Below are positions 3,413 to 33,495 of a DNA stretch of 42,095 nucleotides, piece by piece. The notes beneath the pieces are model-generated. The model saw only the letters and a program-made list of their open reading frames with translations. It was not told the origin of the DNA and did not search any database. Both the position numbers and the translations under genes were made by a program. Source of the DNA: Anaerolineae bacterium. Its GTDB lineage: Bacteria; Chloroflexota; Anaerolineae; Anaerolineales; Villigracilaceae. The stretch lies in assembly GCA_018648605.1 (NCBI GenBank), contig JABGQU010000008.1, positions 1 through 42,095 of the forward strand. The letters are read 5' to 3'. Positions within the stretch are counted from its first letter, which is position 1; each line of letters starts with the position of its first letter.

Positions 3413-3439
3413 TTGCAGTTCGGCTTTTATGCAAGAACC

Positions 3440-3476
3440 GATGTGCAATGCATCAAAAGCAGATGCAACGCACATC
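3440..3476. repeat. Family B palindrome
   Basis: GATGTGCAATGCATC and GATGCAACGCACATC flank a short loop. It ends 5 bp before the ATG at 3482, so any longer N-terminal extension of the next protein would be encoded by repeat. Confidence 0.75.
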
Positions 3477-6438: not shown

Positions 6439-6550
6439 ATGTGCATTGCATCCGCTTTTGGATGCGTTGCACATCGGGTCTTATAGGAATTATCCCTTAC
6501 CTAAACCCGACCTGCAACGCACTTTCCACTTCGCTTCAAGTGCAATGCAG
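6438..6550. repeat. Family B palindromes, two units, starting in the stop codon
   Basis: The first unit (6438-6475) pairs GATGTGCATTGCATCC with GGATGCGTTGCACATC, and its first G is the last base of the TAG stop codon. The second (6512-6550) pairs CTGCAACGCACTT with AAGTGCAATGCAG. No T-run follows either stem. Confidence 0.75.
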
Positions 6551-11343: not shown

Positions 11344-11451
11344 CAGCTCCTGAGCGGAGCGACCGATAGGGAGCGCAGACGAAGGACGGCATTTGCAAAA
11401 ACCGCTCTTCGTCTGCAAGCTCACTGCGTGAGCCTTCCGCTCAGAGACTGG
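11344..11451. repeat. Family A inverted-repeat element, copy 2 (opposite orientation)
   Basis: The left end is CAGCTCCTGAGCGGA, close to the TTC-type arm, and the right end is TCCGCTCAGAGACTG, the CTC-type arm. The inner arms are GACGAAGGACGG and CCGCTCTTCGTC. The arm order is reversed relative to copies 1 and 4. Confidence 0.85.
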
Positions 11452-13634: not shown

Positions 13635-13682
13635 TAAGTGTCCCGAATGGGGTATGCTGTTCGGCTTATTAACAAGACCCAC

Positions 13683-13713
13683 TGTGCAACGCATCTTTCA
13701 GATGCAATGCACA
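13683..13713. repeat. Family B palindrome before a glycosyltransferase gene
   Basis: TGTGCAACGCATC and GATGCAATGCACA flank a 5-bp centre. The following gene starts 5 bp later. Between 13635 and 13682 I see no gene or signal. Confidence 0.7.
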
Positions 13714-13718
13714 CCTAG

Positions 13719-19693: not shown

Positions 19694-20503
19694 ATGAAAC
19701 CTCGTACCATCGCCATTATCCAAGCCCGCATGTCCTCCACCCGTTTGCCGGGGAAGGTACTCCTCGATATCGCCGGAGAGCCGATGCTTGCCCGTGTCAT
19801 TGAGCGCGCCAAACGGGCCAACCTCGTGGACGATGTTGTGCTCGCCACCACCACCGATCCCAGCGACGACCCTGTCGCGGAGTTCTGTGCCGAGCGGGGC
19901 TACAATTTCACGCGCGGTAGCCTGAACGATGTTTTAGATCGCTACTATCAGGCAGCGCGTCAGTATGAAGCGGATGTGATTGTGCGTTTAACGGCGGATT
20001 GTCCCGTTTTAGATTCAGAAATAGTAGATGAGACAATCAGTAATCAGTATTCGGTAATCAGTGGGCAGTATGAAGAGAAATTTGATTTCGTTGCTAATCG
20101 TCTGCCCCCGCCAATGGGGCGCACCTTCCCCATCGGCTTAGACACCGAAGTCTGTACCTTCTCTGCCCTCGAACGAGCGTGGAAAGAAGCCGACCAAAAG
20201 CACCAACGCGAACACGTCATGCCCTATCTCTACGAGAACACCACACTGAATACTGAAAACCGAACACTGTCCACTGGCACTTCCCCGCGTGGCTTCAGGA
20301 TCGCCCTCGTCAACCACGTCCCCGACTACGGCTCCCTGCGCTGGACGGTGGATACACCCGAAGACCTTGAGTTCATTCGTCAAATCTTCGCTCGCTTTGA
20401 CCACGATGATTTTGGCTGGAAAGATGTTTTGGCTTTGCTAGGGCGCGAGCCAGAGCTAGCCAAGATCAACGCCGATGTGCATCATAAAACTTTGATGGAG
20501 TAA
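19694..20503 (+). CDS. SpsF-type cytidylyltransferase, with family H repeat halves inside the frame
   Basis: The 269-residue protein starts with IIQARMSSTRLPGKVL (8-23), the nucleotide-binding loop of SpsF/Kdo-synthetase-like enzymes. It keeps VIVRLTADCPVLDSEIVDE, RTFPIGLDTEVCTF, REHVMPYLYEN and LRWTVDTPEDLEFI. SpsF proteins are thought to activate a sugar acid with CMP, often beside NeuB-like synthases. Residues about 114-126 (QYSVISGQY) and 184-194 (TLNTENRTLS) are encoded by the two arms of a family H palindrome and look like additions in variable loops. All core motifs are intact, so function may be kept. Neighbouring genes are glycosyltransferases. Confidence 0.82.
   Translation: MKPRTIAIIQARMSSTRLPGKVLLDIAGEPMLARVIERAKRANLVDDVVLATTTDPSDDPVAEFCAERGYNFTRGSLNDVLDRYYQAARQYEADVIVRLTADCPVLDSEIVDETISNQYSVISGQYEEKFDFVANRLPPPMGRTFPIGLDTEVCTFSALERAWKEADQKHQREHVMPYLYENTTLNTENRTLSTGTSPRGFRIALVNHVPDYGSLRWTVDTPEDLEFIRQIFARFDHDDFGWKDVLALLGREPELAKINADVHHKTLME
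20035..20072. repeat. Family H arm 1, inside the SpsF-type coding sequence
   Basis: CAGTAATCAGTATTCGGTAA and the following TCAGTGGGCAGTAT match the left arm of the intergenic family H element at 30266-30372. The arm keeps the reading frame open. Confidence 0.75.
20245..20276. repeat. Family H arm 2, inside the SpsF-type coding sequence
   Basis: ACTGAATACTGAAAACCGAA and the following CACTGTCCACTG are the inverse of arm 1 and match the right arm at 30340-30372. About 170 bp of conserved coding sequence separate the arms. Confidence 0.75.
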
Positions 20504-22626: not shown

Positions 22627-22718
22627 GTCTCTGCGAGCTGCCGATGCTTTTCGGCAGCGTGGCAGCCTCCCGAACTGTTTAGGAGATTGCTTCGGTGGTG
22701 AAACTGCCTCGCAAAGAC
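22627..22718. repeat. Family D inverted repeat, copy 2
   Basis: GTCTCTGCGAG and CTCGCAAAGAC form the ends; the inner stem is GCTGCCGA...TCGGCAGC. Compared with copy 1 the arms carry paired changes, keeping the hairpin. Confidence 0.8.
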
Positions 22719-22748
22719 AGAATGAGAAGAGTTTGAAACCGGAGAACT

Positions 22749-27821: not shown

Positions 27822-29426
27822 ATGGATAGAAAACCCGCGTACGCCCTCCTTTTAGGCTTGCTCGCTGCGACAGGAATTTGGTTGCTGAATATAAGCACGC
27901 CCTACGGGCTTGGACTGATCGACGACGCTATCTCATATATCGCCGCAGCCCGTGCCCTCCTCAGCGGACAGGGTTTCACGCGCATCTGGCTTGCCAGCGG
28001 ATTGGAGCCGATCACGCATTGGCCCCCTGGCTTTTCTGCCACGTTGGCAGCACTCAGCTTCCTTCTCAAGATCGATCCCTATCGTAGCGCTAGGTTATTG
28101 AATATGCTCGTCTTTGGTGGGAACGCTGCGCTTTTAGCGCTGCTCAGCTATAAGATGACCAAATCTCATTGGTGGGGGGGATTTCTTTCGCTTCTTTTCT
28201 TATTAAATAGCTCTATTCTTCGTCTTCATGCCCAAGCATTAAGTGAACCGCTTTATCTTTTCGTGAGCTTATTGGGGTTTTGGGCTTTTTATCGTCATTT
28301 TGAAAAAGCAAATGAAAATGTCAGTGCGAACGGAGTGAAGCAATCTCCACGTCAGGCTAAAGCCTTCCTCGCAATGATAAAAAATGCGTGGAATGAAGAG
28401 AAATACATCATCCTTGCAGGTTTGCTTACATCTCTTTCTTATCTAACACGTTATGCGGCCCTGTCCTTATTGGCGACCTTTATCGTTGCTATTTTTGTTT
28501 TGCGCCCAACATGGCGCAAAAGATTCACGTCTTTAACATTCTTTTTGCTTGGCGCGATGCCGCTCATTTTCGCGTGGATGCTTCGCAACAAGTTCATCGG
28601 TGGGAGCGTAACAAACCGTGCTATCAAGTGGCATCCCGTTACGGTGGTGAATGCCAGACGTGGCCTGAGAGAGTTCTTTTCTTTTCTTATCCCCTTGCAA
28701 GAATTACGAAGAGATTGGTTTGATAATTATTCGTTTGTGACTCTTATTCTTGTGATCATGGTCTTGAGTTTGCTTTTCTGGCTTCTTTGGCGTGTTTTAA
28801 AATATTTCCTAAAGCCAAAGGAAAATATGCAACCCGAGGTTATTTCTTTCACCACCGCTCTCTATATCTTCGGTTATATGGGGTCGTTGCTGGTCTCACT
28901 CTCATTCTTTGATGCTGCCACGCCGCTAAATGACCGTATCCTTTCACCGGTTTATATTGCGGTATTGATGCTGTTGGTTTATTTTCTTCACAAGCTCTTT
29001 TGGCAAGGTAAAATTGCAGGCAGAATATTGTCGATAAGTGCAACAATTTTCTTTTTTGCGATTTTTGGACTGGCACAGATCAACACGGTTAAAAATTTAC
29101 AGGAAACCACGCCAGGATTTGCGTCCTGGCGTTGGCGAGATTCGACGGTGATGGCAGCTATCCGCGAATTACCGGATGATGTTATGGTATATACCAACCA
29201 ACAGCCTGCCGTTTATTTCTGGACGGGTCGCCCTGCTATGATCTTGGCTACAAATGAAGCACATATATTGCAAGTCAAAGAGAGCATTTTAGCGGGCGAA
29301 GCTGTCTTAGCATATTTCCCCCAGGAGAATACTTCTCTTTCCCGGGAAGAAGAAAGACTTTGGCAAGATGGATTACCCGCTATAGAAAAATCGGGTCTGG
29401 GTAATTTATATGGCAAAATGCCTTAA
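27822..29426 (+). CDS. GT-C-type membrane glycosyltransferase with an in-frame family D repeat
   Basis: The 534-residue protein has about eleven to twelve hydrophobic segments. After the first helix comes LIDDAISYIAAARALLSGQGF (in two parts: LIDDAISYI, AARALLSGQGF), the acidic first loop of GT-C/ArnT-PMT-like enzymes that use polyprenyl-phosphate sugars on the outer membrane face. Asp34 and Asp35 are candidate catalytic residues. Residues about 166-186 (ENVSANGVKQSPRQAKAFLA) are encoded by a family D repeat in a cytoplasmic loop between helices. The repeat keeps the frame, so the enzyme is probably functional. ATG 27822 is chosen; an upstream in-frame GTG at 27804 lies in the hairpin flank. 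Confidence 0.78.
   Translation: MDRKPAYALLLGLLAATGIWLLNISTPYGLGLIDDAISYIAAARALLSGQGFTRIWLASGLEPITHWPPGFSATLAALSFLLKIDPYRSARLLNMLVFGGNAALLALLSYKMTKSHWWGGFLSLLFLLNSSILRLHAQALSEPLYLFVSLLGFWAFYRHFEKANENVSANGVKQSPRQAKAFLAMIKNAWNEEKYIILAGLLTSLSYLTRYAALSLLATFIVAIFVLRPTWRKRFTSLTFFLLGAMPLIFAWMLRNKFIGGSVTNRAIKWHPVTVVNARRGLREFFSFLIPLQELRRDWFDNYSFVTLILVIMVLSLLFWLLWRVLKYFLKPKENMQPEVISFTTALYIFGYMGSLLVSLSFFDAATPLNDRILSPVYIAVLMLLVYFLHKLFWQGKIAGRILSISATIFFFAIFGLAQINTVKNLQETTPGFASWRWRDSTVMAAIRELPDDVMVYTNQQPAVYFWTGRPAMILATNEAHILQVKESILAGEAVLAYFPQENTSLSREEERLWQDGLPAIEKSGLGNLYGKMP
28319..28379. repeat. Family D repeat inside the GT-C coding sequence
   Basis: GTCAGTGCGAACGGAGTGAA, GCAATCTCC and CTTCCTCGCAATGATA match the left and right parts of the intergenic family D elements (for example 31595-31672). 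The middle is shortened. It codes for extra residues in a loop between membrane helices. Confidence 0.75.
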
Positions 29427-30265: not shown

Positions 30266-30372
30266 GCAGTATTCAGTGAGCAGTGGTCGGTAATCAGTAA
30301 AAAACTGAACACTGACAACTGAATGCCGAATACCGAATACTGAATACTGAAAACTGGATACTGAATACTGAT
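30266..30372. repeat. Family H inverted repeat containing the start codon of the next gene
   Basis: CAGTATTCAGTGAGCAGTGG and GGTAATCAGT form the left half; CCGAATACTGAATACTG forms the right half, with further ACTGA/TCAGT units between. The last bases, CTGATG, include the ATG at 30371. Two arms of the same family are inside the gene at 19694. Confidence 0.8.
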
Positions 30373-31588
30373 GACCGAAATCCTAGCAATTATCCCCGCT
30401 CGCGGCGGCTCGAAAGGCATTCCGCGCAAGAATATCCGCAACTTTGCGGGCTACCCGCTGATCGCCTACAGCATTGCTGCCGGGCTGAAATCGGAGCTTG
30501 TCACGCGCGTGATCGTCAGTACCGACGACGACGAGATCGCCGAAGTTTCCCGCGAATATGGCGCAGAAACACCCTTTATGCGCCCATCCGTTTTCGCCGA
30601 AGATAACACCACCGACCTGCCTGTTTTCGTCCACGCCCTTGAGTGGCTCGCCGAAAACGAAGATTATCACCCTGACGTTGTTGTGCAATTACGCCCTACA
30701 TCGCCCATCCGCCCCATTGATTGCGTGGATGATGCCATTCGCATCCTGCTCGATAATCCCGAAGCCGATTCGGTGCGCGGTGTTGTTCCCGCTGGGCAAA
30801 ATCCGCATAAGATGTGGCGCCTGCCCGATGGCGAGAACGCCGCCATGCGCAACCTGCTCGATGTCGATGGCATCGCCGAGCCGTACAACGCGCCCCGCCA
30901 AAGCCTGCCGCCCATCTACTGGCAGACGGGGCATATTGATGCCATTCGTCCGCGTGCCATTTTGGAGCAAAAATCCATGACGGGATCGAATATCTTCCCG
31001 CTCATCATTGATCCCAATTACACGGTGGATATTGATAATCTCTCGGATTGGGCGAAGTATGAATATCTGGTCAAGTTTGGTAATATGCAATTTATCTCAC
31101 CCGGACCCGACCGCCGCCCGATGCCTGAACCCGTTAAGGCACTTTTTCTCGATTTCGACGGCGTGATGACCGATAACCGCGTCTGGACAGATCAGGAGGG
31201 ACGAGAAACAGTCGCCGCCAGCCGTGGCGATGGGTTTGGTATTCAGATGCTCGTTAAGGCGGGGGTTCCTGTCATCGTCATCTCGAAGGAGAGAAATCCT
31301 GTCGTGGCGGCACGCTGTAAGAAGCTGGGCATCCCTTACCGGCAAGGTATTGACGACAAAACAGATGTTCTTAAACGGGAACAAGCCAAATTGGGGGTCG
31401 ATCCGGCGGAGACAATCTTCGTCGGCAACGATCTGAACGATCTGCCCGCCTTCCCGTTCGTCGGGTGGGGCGTCGCCGTCGCAGATGCGCATCCTGAAGT
31501 CCTGCAAAAAGCGGATTTCGTGCTAAGTAAAAATGGCGGACACGGTGCTGTCCGTGAAATTTGTGATTTGATATTATCCATACTATAA
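30371..31588 (+). CDS. Fused CMP-nonulosonate synthetase and HAD phosphatase (CMAS-like architecture)
   Basis: The 405-residue protein joins two domains. Residues 1-235 are an acylneuraminate cytidylyltransferase with IIPARGGSKGIPRKN (7-21) and QLRPTSPIRP (106-115). Residues 255-405 are a KdsC-like HAD phosphatase with LDFDGVMTDN (D261, D263), the conserved SKERN Ser and Lys, and FVGNDLND. This domain order is that of animal CMAS. In bacteria of similar build the phosphatase is thought to act on a 9-phosphate such as KDN-9-phosphate. With the NANS-like synthase downstream, it gives a phosphorylated-intermediate route (inference). The ATG lies in a family H repeat and has no Shine-Dalgarno. 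Confidence 0.88.
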   Translation: MTEILAIIPARGGSKGIPRKNIRNFAGYPLIAYSIAAGLKSELVTRVIVSTDDDEIAEVSREYGAETPFMRPSVFAEDNTTDLPVFVHALEWLAENEDYHPDVVVQLRPTSPIRPIDCVDDAIRILLDNPEADSVRGVVPAGQNPHKMWRLPDGENAAMRNLLDVDGIAEPYNAPRQSLPPIYWQTGHIDAIRPRAILEQKSMTGSNIFPLIIDPNYTVDIDNLSDWAKYEYLVKFGNMQFISPGPDRRPMPEPVKALFLDFDGVMTDNRVWTDQEGRETVAASRGDGFGIQMLVKAGVPVIVISKERNPVVAARCKKLGIPYRQGIDDKTDVLKREQAKLGVDPAETIFVGNDLNDLPAFPFVGWGVAVADAHPEVLQKADFVLSKNGGHGAVREICDLILSIL

Positions 31589-31594
31589 ATTTAC

Positions 31595-31672
31595 GTCACT
31601 GCGAGCGAAGCGAAGCAGTCTCCCTCACAGCGTTGGAGATTGTTTCGGCGGTAAAGCTGCCTCGCAATGACA
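31595..31672. repeat. Family D inverted repeat, copy 4
   Basis: GTCACTGCGAG and CTCGCAATGAC form the ends; GCAGTCTCC and GGAGATTGTTTC form imperfect inner arms. It lies 20 bp before the next start and supplies the false N-terminal extension of that frame. Confidence 0.8.
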
Positions 31673-32568: not shown

Positions 32569-32579
32569 ATTGATTCTTT

Positions 32580-32606
32580 GTAGGGGCGGGGTAACCCCGC
32601 CCCTAC
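32580..32606. repeat. Family C palindrome, copy 3
   Basis: GTAGGGGCGGGGT and ACCCCGCCCCTAC form a perfect stem with a single base at the centre or a two-base AA turn. It touches an in-frame ATG at 32607, nine bases before the preferred start of the next gene. Confidence 0.85.
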
Positions 32607-32615
32607 ATGATATTT

Positions 32616-33470
32616 ATGGAAATAAAAGACACCCTCCGTCAAAAACTTCGCGAGCCGGGCAAATATGCTCAGGCAATTTTGCGTTGGCGACGTTTCTCTT
32701 TTGGTGATGCGCCACTCATTTTTGGCAATGCCAAAGCCAAAAGCGGATCGCATTTGCTCTTGCAGGTACTCAACGGATTTACAAAGATAATTCCTTACGC
32801 CTATACGGTTGCTGATCCCGTCCGCACGATAGAAAAAAGTGGCAGGCGCAGAACTACGGATGAGATCGTTGCCGACCTGCGCAACCAGCCCCGCCATGCC
32901 ATCGGATGGGGTTACGTTGATGCCACAGCAGAGAATGCCGCAGTACTCTGCCACCCAGAGCGGGTCAACTACTTCATCTATCGTGATCCACGCGATGTAC
33001 TCGTCTCGCAGGTTTTCTTTGCAACCGATATGCACAAAGAGCATGGAATGCATGCGTATTACAATTCCTTGCCCGATTTTCATTCTCGTCTAAAAGTTGC
33101 TATTACCGGCATCGATCAAGGCGATCTGCAAATGGGCGGCGTCAATAAGCGCTATGCAGATGTCTTTGCCTGGTTGGATCAACCCCATGTGATGTGCATC
33201 CGCTTTGAAGATTTGATTAATAATCGCGATGAAACCCTCCTCGCTATGCTCGATGAAGTCGAGAAAACGGGATATAAAATCCCCACGCCAAGAGATAAGG
33301 CGCTGGAGATACTCATCGAAGCGATCAATCCAAAGAAGAGCCACACCTTCCGTTCAGGGAAGACGGGTGGTTGGGTGAGTCATTTTAGCGAAGAGAATAA
33401 AGCTTTATTCAAGGAAATCAGCGGGGATTTGTTGGAAAAACTCGGTTATGAAGAGAATGGTAATTGGTAG
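32616..33470 (+). CDS. Sulfotransferase (PAPS-dependent, Sulfotransfer_1-like)
   Basis: The 284-residue protein has NAKAKSGSHLLLQVL (about 38-52) as the 5'-phosphosulfate loop and FIYRDPRDVLVSQVFF (R123, S131) for the 3'-phosphate. It ends with TFRSGKTGGWVSHFSEENK, a version of the RKGxxGxWK motif of cytosolic sulfotransferases. The end (LGYEENGNW) is shared with the gene at 36075, so the two are paralogues. The acceptor is unknown; the locus glycan is likely. ATG 32607 is also in frame but lies at the edge of a family C repeat. The TAG stop is formed by the start of another family C unit. Confidence 0.9.
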   Translation: MEIKDTLRQKLREPGKYAQAILRWRRFSFGDAPLIFGNAKAKSGSHLLLQVLNGFTKIIPYAYTVADPVRTIEKSGRRRTTDEIVADLRNQPRHAIGWGYVDATAENAAVLCHPERVNYFIYRDPRDVLVSQVFFATDMHKEHGMHAYYNSLPDFHSRLKVAITGIDQGDLQMGGVNKRYADVFAWLDQPHVMCIRFEDLINNRDETLLAMLDEVEKTGYKIPTPRDKALEILIEAINPKKSHTFRSGKTGGWVSHFSEENKALFKEISGDLLEKLGYEENGNW

Positions 33471-33495
33471 GGGCGAGGTCATCTCGCCCTTTTTT
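33471..33495 (+). terminator. Intrinsic terminator formed by a family C unit
   Basis: GGGCGAG (33471-33477) pairs with CTCGCCC (33483-33489) around a 5-nt loop, followed by six T (33490-33495). The bases GTAGGGGCGAGGT overlap the preceding stop codon, as expected for family C, but the right arm is cut short and ends in the T-run. Confidence 0.8.

Follow-up and report, generated by a model that had tools for sequence, protein, structure and literature searches.

Dispersed heptamer repeats as a probable source of two coding loops in an SpsF-type cytidylyltransferase gene of Anaerolineales

In a draft genome of 3.26 Mb from the Anaerolineales (Chloroflexota), an SpsF-type cytidylyltransferase gene contains two short segments which resemble, in inverted order, a palindrome lying between genes elsewhere on the same contig (contig 50). 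This raises the question of how DNA of an intergenic type came to be read as part of a conserved enzyme, and of whether each segment represents an insertion. The window analysed here is the whole stretch of 42,095 nucleotides containing the gene. The gene itself (19694..20503, + strand) is an open frame of 269 aa that matches Pfam PF02348 (CTP_transf_3, E 1e-34), and the nearest solved structure to its product is that of a Leptospira cytidylyltransferase (6oew). Both segments are in frame within it, in agreement with a previous sequence-only reading of this DNA.

Each arm is a heptamer array whose degenerate unit is CAGTNNN. Arm 1 (20038..20069, + strand) is in the sense orientation at loop site 1, with the heptamers CAGTAAT CAGTATT CGGTAAT CAGTGGG CAGT, and its in-frame reading is part of ISNQYSVISGQY. 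Arm 2 (20245..20276), at loop site 2, is antisense, the array lying on the − strand of a + strand gene; it reads ACTGAAT ACTGAAA ACCGAAC ACTGTCC ACTG and encodes LNTENRTLST. These positions, the inverted order of the arms and their spacing of about 170 bp, all reported previously, were recovered by a core scan that looked for four CAGT cores spaced 7 bases apart, in which each array matched at least 15 of 16 bases (15/16 for arm 1). The same scan located the reference copy between genes, which has a sense arm (30267..30298, + strand) and an antisense arm (30304..30377, − strand). These four arrays are the only ones in the window, and 100 shuffled windows contained no array at 15/16. The proposed match between the SpsF arms and the intergenic element is confirmed.

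Since 7 is not divisible by 3, sense CAGTNNN arrays are open whichever of the three frames is read. In antisense arrays, every third unit meets a TGA codon unless it is altered, usually by a change of ACTG to ACCG. In the stop-prone phase, ACTG was followed by A in none of six units and 16 units read ACCG; the corresponding figures for ACTG followed by A were 43 of 92 units in the other phases and 32 of 45 in the arrays of the source genome, although the rows compared are related and the counts are not independent.

In the predicted model of the SpsF protein from the window (mean pLDDT 93), arm 1 forms a beta-hairpin (strands 119–122 and 125–128), and so does arm 2 (strands 186–189 and 192–196). 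DNA comparison of the source genome (G000) with its closest relative, G008, in which the SpsF protein is 85% identical, reveals a single clean gap of 21 bases at arm 1. The three heptamers absent from G008 (20035..20055, + strand) were delimited by global DNA alignment and by protein alignment. G008 retains GTGCAG at the gap junction, and no obvious target-site duplication, of the kind that accompanies a MITE, flanks the gap at this one empty site inspected. Other members of the genus have different repeats at site 1, in each case in frame: CAGTTGT units in G001, purine heptamers in G002, and a long, non-heptamer repeat of the GTCATTGCGAG type in G003 and G006. With its flanks, the G003 insert matches 26 places in the source genome and 15 in G006, and it is therefore a dispersed repeat. 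Outside the genus, site 1 contains sense CAGT arrays, antisense arrays, or heptamers of the GGAATCG, GGAGACT and GGTAATT kinds. At locus L137 there is a whole two-armed palindrome, again in frame; in the model of that protein the long insert has a pLDDT of 48–58 beside a confident, intact core, and it is probably disordered. The site tolerates unrelated peptides, with 0 to about 30 extra residues. The alignments support the identification of arm 1 as a heptamer array peculiar to this lineage; the loop that holds it appears to have been refilled by different repeat families in related species. For this arm, the earlier description of an inserted and tolerated repeat, coding for residues of low conservation, holds, given the 21-base gap in G008 and the other families at the same spot in congeners.

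The description does not extend to arm 2, where relatives keep both the length of the loop and similar residues. Its counterparts are LNTENRLLHTG in G008 and G002, LVTENRSLQTG in G012 and LITDNRLLHTG in G025. Other genera have a segment of equal length (22 aa from YE to RGF), with sequences such as LITDNRSLQTG and LVTENRSLQTG, and this length is constant in most orthologues while the repeat type changes. Residues like those of arm 2 persist even in G003, the genome of which has one CAGT array match only. Since length and similar residues occur in other genera, arm 2 does not represent an insertion peculiar to the source genome, and a recent insertion was rejected on the same grounds. At the DNA level, ACTG is held at the 7-base phase in several genera, and at this site L151, L156, L144 and G015 carry heptamers of other types or an insert that is clearly a palindrome. 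The preferred interpretation of arm 2 is a long-established array site, which would already make up the enzyme's standard hairpin in several genera. A single palindromic element split by the gene was likewise rejected. The arms do not represent the two ends of one insertion, because the intervening 172 bases code for conserved parts of the enzyme and each site varies independently of the other.

Among 96 distinct SpsF orthologues, all 64 regions of period-7 self-match lie at the two loops, none was found elsewhere in SpsF, and no stop codon occurs. Almost all of the length variation in these proteins is also at the two loops. Repeat family labels, set by score cut-offs, changed at least 20 times at site 1 and at least 38 times at site 2 on a tree built from SpsF without the loops, many branches of which are weakly supported, so that these counts are rough. 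Synonymous codon shuffling, which keeps the protein, gave 5.8 period-7 regions in SpsF against 53 observed, and 19.4 against 148 in 432 other genes of the compared loci. With 21 comparisons for each period and a cut-off of 17/21, there were 50 regions of period 7, 11 of period 14 (its double) and four or fewer of every other period. The synonymous shuffles reject a repeat at the protein level as the source of the periodicity. A coding period-7 excess is also present in an array-rich relative (34 regions vs 10.8 shuffled) and is absent from a relative without CAGT arrays, G011 (3 vs 4.5), and from E. coli (1 vs 0.7); a general property of bacterial coding sequence is rejected by these two controls. 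The genomes compared are mostly draft or metagenome assemblies, and the gene models in the scan are simple ORFs. Genome-wide array numbers are higher in those genomes whose SpsF contains CAGT/ACTG arrays (p 0.001, in a test that ignores relatedness).

Heptamers of another kind were seen in neighbouring genes. In L085, L088, L094 and L100, an upstream gene near SpsF (about 440–453 aa) has ATTACCA heptamers in frame near residue 276, at the same position in several species, and in another gene near SpsF they lie in frame near a PWGVDL motif.

The source genome as a whole has 74 matches to the four-unit pattern and one to a reversed control pattern, and the intergenic element (30267–30377) has BLAST matches at 17 places in it. 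Of 32 arrays checked outside the window contig, with positions derived from pattern searches, 14 are intergenic, nine overlap gene ends (giving 23 of 32 between genes or at gene ends) and nine lie inside open frames. Genes carrying arrays encode LigA (two arrays), MutS2, the glycyl-tRNA synthetase beta subunit (GlyS), SbcC and EPSP synthase; further array-bearing frames encode an oxidoreductase and a DUF2298 protein, and one (L221) has no Pfam match.

In LigA, comparison with the E. coli enzyme (2owo) reveals an insert after IPLKI that contains a sense and an antisense arm together. Across 17 LigA sequences from 17 species, all 23 period-7 regions lie at two sites, the IPLKI loop and the linker before the BRCT domain, and the unit family differs by species. 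The linker of G002 contains GTAGGGGTGCAGCATGCTGCACCCCTAC, a non-heptamer repeat with further copies in that genome. GlyS of the source genome has an 11-aa repeat-like insert relative to 7lu4, and a 1014-aa frame in G025 that shares the GlyS motifs contains different heptamer arrays at the corresponding places. The GlyS frame of the source genome (L236, contig C91, 2–2293) also contains SPSPSGRGVRGEG and SSLITHHSSFLL, which resemble two more in-frame families.

Several other dispersed repeats are present in the window. A palindrome, GTAGGGGCGGGGTNACCCCGCCCCTAC, similar to the GTAGGGGTGCAGCATGCTGCACCCCTAC repeat of G002 LigA, occurs at 1300–1329, 32577–32606 and 33464–33491. Repeats of the AGCGAAGCAATCTCC kind, like the site 1 insert of G003 and G006, are found at 2378–2413, 22656–22719, 28337–28372 and 31609–31672. 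A third family, CAGTCTCTGAGCGGAGCGTAGCG, is present at 1020, 11338, 16745, 20505 (just 3' of the SpsF stop codon), 23770 and 27738, with inverse copies at 11433, 16858, 20624 and 23850, and a fourth consists of inverted repeats around GATGTGCAATGCA (1170–1274, 3433–3458, 6457–6482 and 13674–13718).

It is probable that this genome is full of dispersed palindromes built of degenerate heptamers, and that such repeat DNA became coding sequence in two loops of SpsF. Repeat DNA would be copied into a gene, or would expand within it; the survivors would be copies that are in frame, free of stops and situated in loops or linkers; the encoded segment would be tolerated as a hairpin or a disordered loop and would decay by mutation, presumably neutrally; and the same loops would then be used again. 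The filter on frame and stops, and the reuse of loops, are both demonstrated by the sequences compared. As to arrival, the non-heptamer repeats at the same sites, the two-armed inserts and the link with genome-wide abundance speak for copying-in of dispersed elements. The fixed period of 7 despite the variety of units, and the exact three-unit difference from G008, speak for slippage in place. No enzyme dedicated to mobilising the repeats was found. Nearly every genome examined has Y1 transposases, and they do not follow array number (no array hits and eight Y1 matches in G018; 185 array hits and one Y1 match in G019); a Y1 transposase as mobiliser, of the REP/RAYT kind, is thus not supported.

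A possible but rather unlikely alternative to the copying of dispersed elements is that the arrays originate within the gene itself, where replication slippage or template switching would advance in steps of 7 bases from a short chance match that served as seed. The period is always 7 although the units vary widely (CAGTNNN, GGAATCG, GACCTTT, TGCAACC and AGAGANN), GTGCAG is kept at the junction of the three-unit gap in G008, and a proposal that heptamers favour polymerase slippage has been relayed previously (MacGregor, 2015; PMC4679880). Against it stand the dispersed, non-heptamer repeats at these sites (GTCATTGCGAG type in SpsF of G003 and G006, GTAGGGGTGCAGCATGCTGCACCCCTAC in LigA of G002), the complete two-armed palindromes of LigA and L137 SpsF, and the correlation between in-gene and genome-wide array abundance. 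For simple insertion, the constant length of site 2 through changes of repeat type is hard to explain, and some of the loop repeat families have few strong copies elsewhere.

Selection of the hairpins as protein, for instance for binding or a dimer contact, with the repeats kept for a useful peptide, is improbable. In its favour, both segments are modelled as beta-hairpins with good confidence, and site 2 shows conservation of its length and of some of its residues. Nevertheless, a 7-base periodicity running across codon phases would not be expected from such selection and is abolished by synonymous shuffling, site 1 accepts unrelated peptides over its whole range of lengths, and the largest insert is of low confidence and probably disordered beside an intact core. 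It is also very unlikely that ordinary coding sequence resembles the repeat only by chance at arm 2, and perhaps at arm 1: relatives share the arm 2 residues, and part of the match comes from conserved Leu codons spaced 21 bases apart, but the shuffled windows contained no match, the period of 7 exceeds synonymous shuffles across orthologues and is confined to the two sites, ACTG is at equal phases in different genera, and arm 1 has the 21-base gap and the inserts of congeners in its favour.

The preferred reading, in which dispersed repeat DNA became coding sequence in the SpsF loops, can be extended more tentatively. Heptamer arrays and palindromes may be written continually throughout these genomes by a DNA process whose step is inherently 7 bases, whatever the sequence of the unit, and DNA of the intergenic type may be a standing source of new loops in core enzymes across a bacterial order, with the same loops rewritten. 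We regard this wider proposal as more doubtful than not.

The sequence-only reading had compared the SpsF arms with Rickettsia palindromic elements (RPEs). The comparison is apt in principle and extends genome-wide, to the arrays in LigA, MutS2, GlyS, SbcC and others. RPEs and their Wolbachia equivalents are also dispersed palindromes, found between genes and in frame within conserved genes with the frame left intact, and Rickettsia orthologues can carry different RPE groups near one site (R. japonica genome, PMC3767692; review, PMC2229807). As with RPEs, the arrays are both intergenic and coding in one genome, and in-frame insertions absent from homologues are seen at SpsF site 1, in LigA vs 2owo and in GlyS vs 7lu4. 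The unit is palindromic in the intergenic copy and in the LigA and L137 inserts, and arm 1 of SpsF in the window is a single arm. RPEs, however, are single elements of about 100–150 bp from obligate intracellular Alphaproteobacteria. The repeats described here are degenerate heptamer arrays of variable length and several families, often with one arm, in environmental Chloroflexota, and no defined element of that size with family-wide similarity was found among them, the arrays having 3 to about 10 heptamers.

TAACTGA heptamers in Beggiatoaceae, Cyanobacteria and Bacteroidetes (MacGregor, 2015; PMC4679880) are a second comparable system. They have a seven-base tandem unit of the same CAGT class, are mostly intergenic, as are the arrays reported here, and encode LSVISYQ, open in all frames, in the sense direction and LITDN followed by a stop in the antisense direction. 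They differ in being near-exact direct repeats with in-gene copies mainly at protein ends (PMC4679880), whereas the present arrays are degenerate and palindromic, lie internally in core enzymes and reuse the same loops. Exact tandem TAACTGA copies were not found among them: the last three bases of CAGTNNN vary, and CAGTTAT is one variant only. Seven-base tandem units are also unusually common in some bacteria as cyanobacterial heptanucleotide STRRs and prokaryote satellites; however, no description of these as recurrent enzyme loop inserts was found, and long in-gene repeats are mostly multiples of three. The text of MacGregor (2015) makes no mention of Chloroflexi (PMC4679880), and a literature search of open-licence papers found no published account of the phenomenon in Chloroflexota.

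In-frame insertion of repeats into core proteins has so far been known mainly from Rickettsia and Wolbachia. Here it is seen across an order of bacteria from the environment, whose genomes are of ordinary size; essential genes are affected, and the same loops are reused by different families. The system works as the coding palindromes of Rickettsia do, but its building blocks are heptamer arrays from many families. Loop sequences of this kind may not be homologous from one species to the next, and masking them is advisable in phylogenetic trees and structural work. The same heptamer-repeat sequences that lie between genes appear to write flexible loops in many core enzyme genes of the order, which offers many natural replicates for the study of how non-coding DNA turns into protein, how loop indels arise and why the unit is seven. 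Repetitive DNA thus appears to supply these bacteria recurrently with new protein loops.
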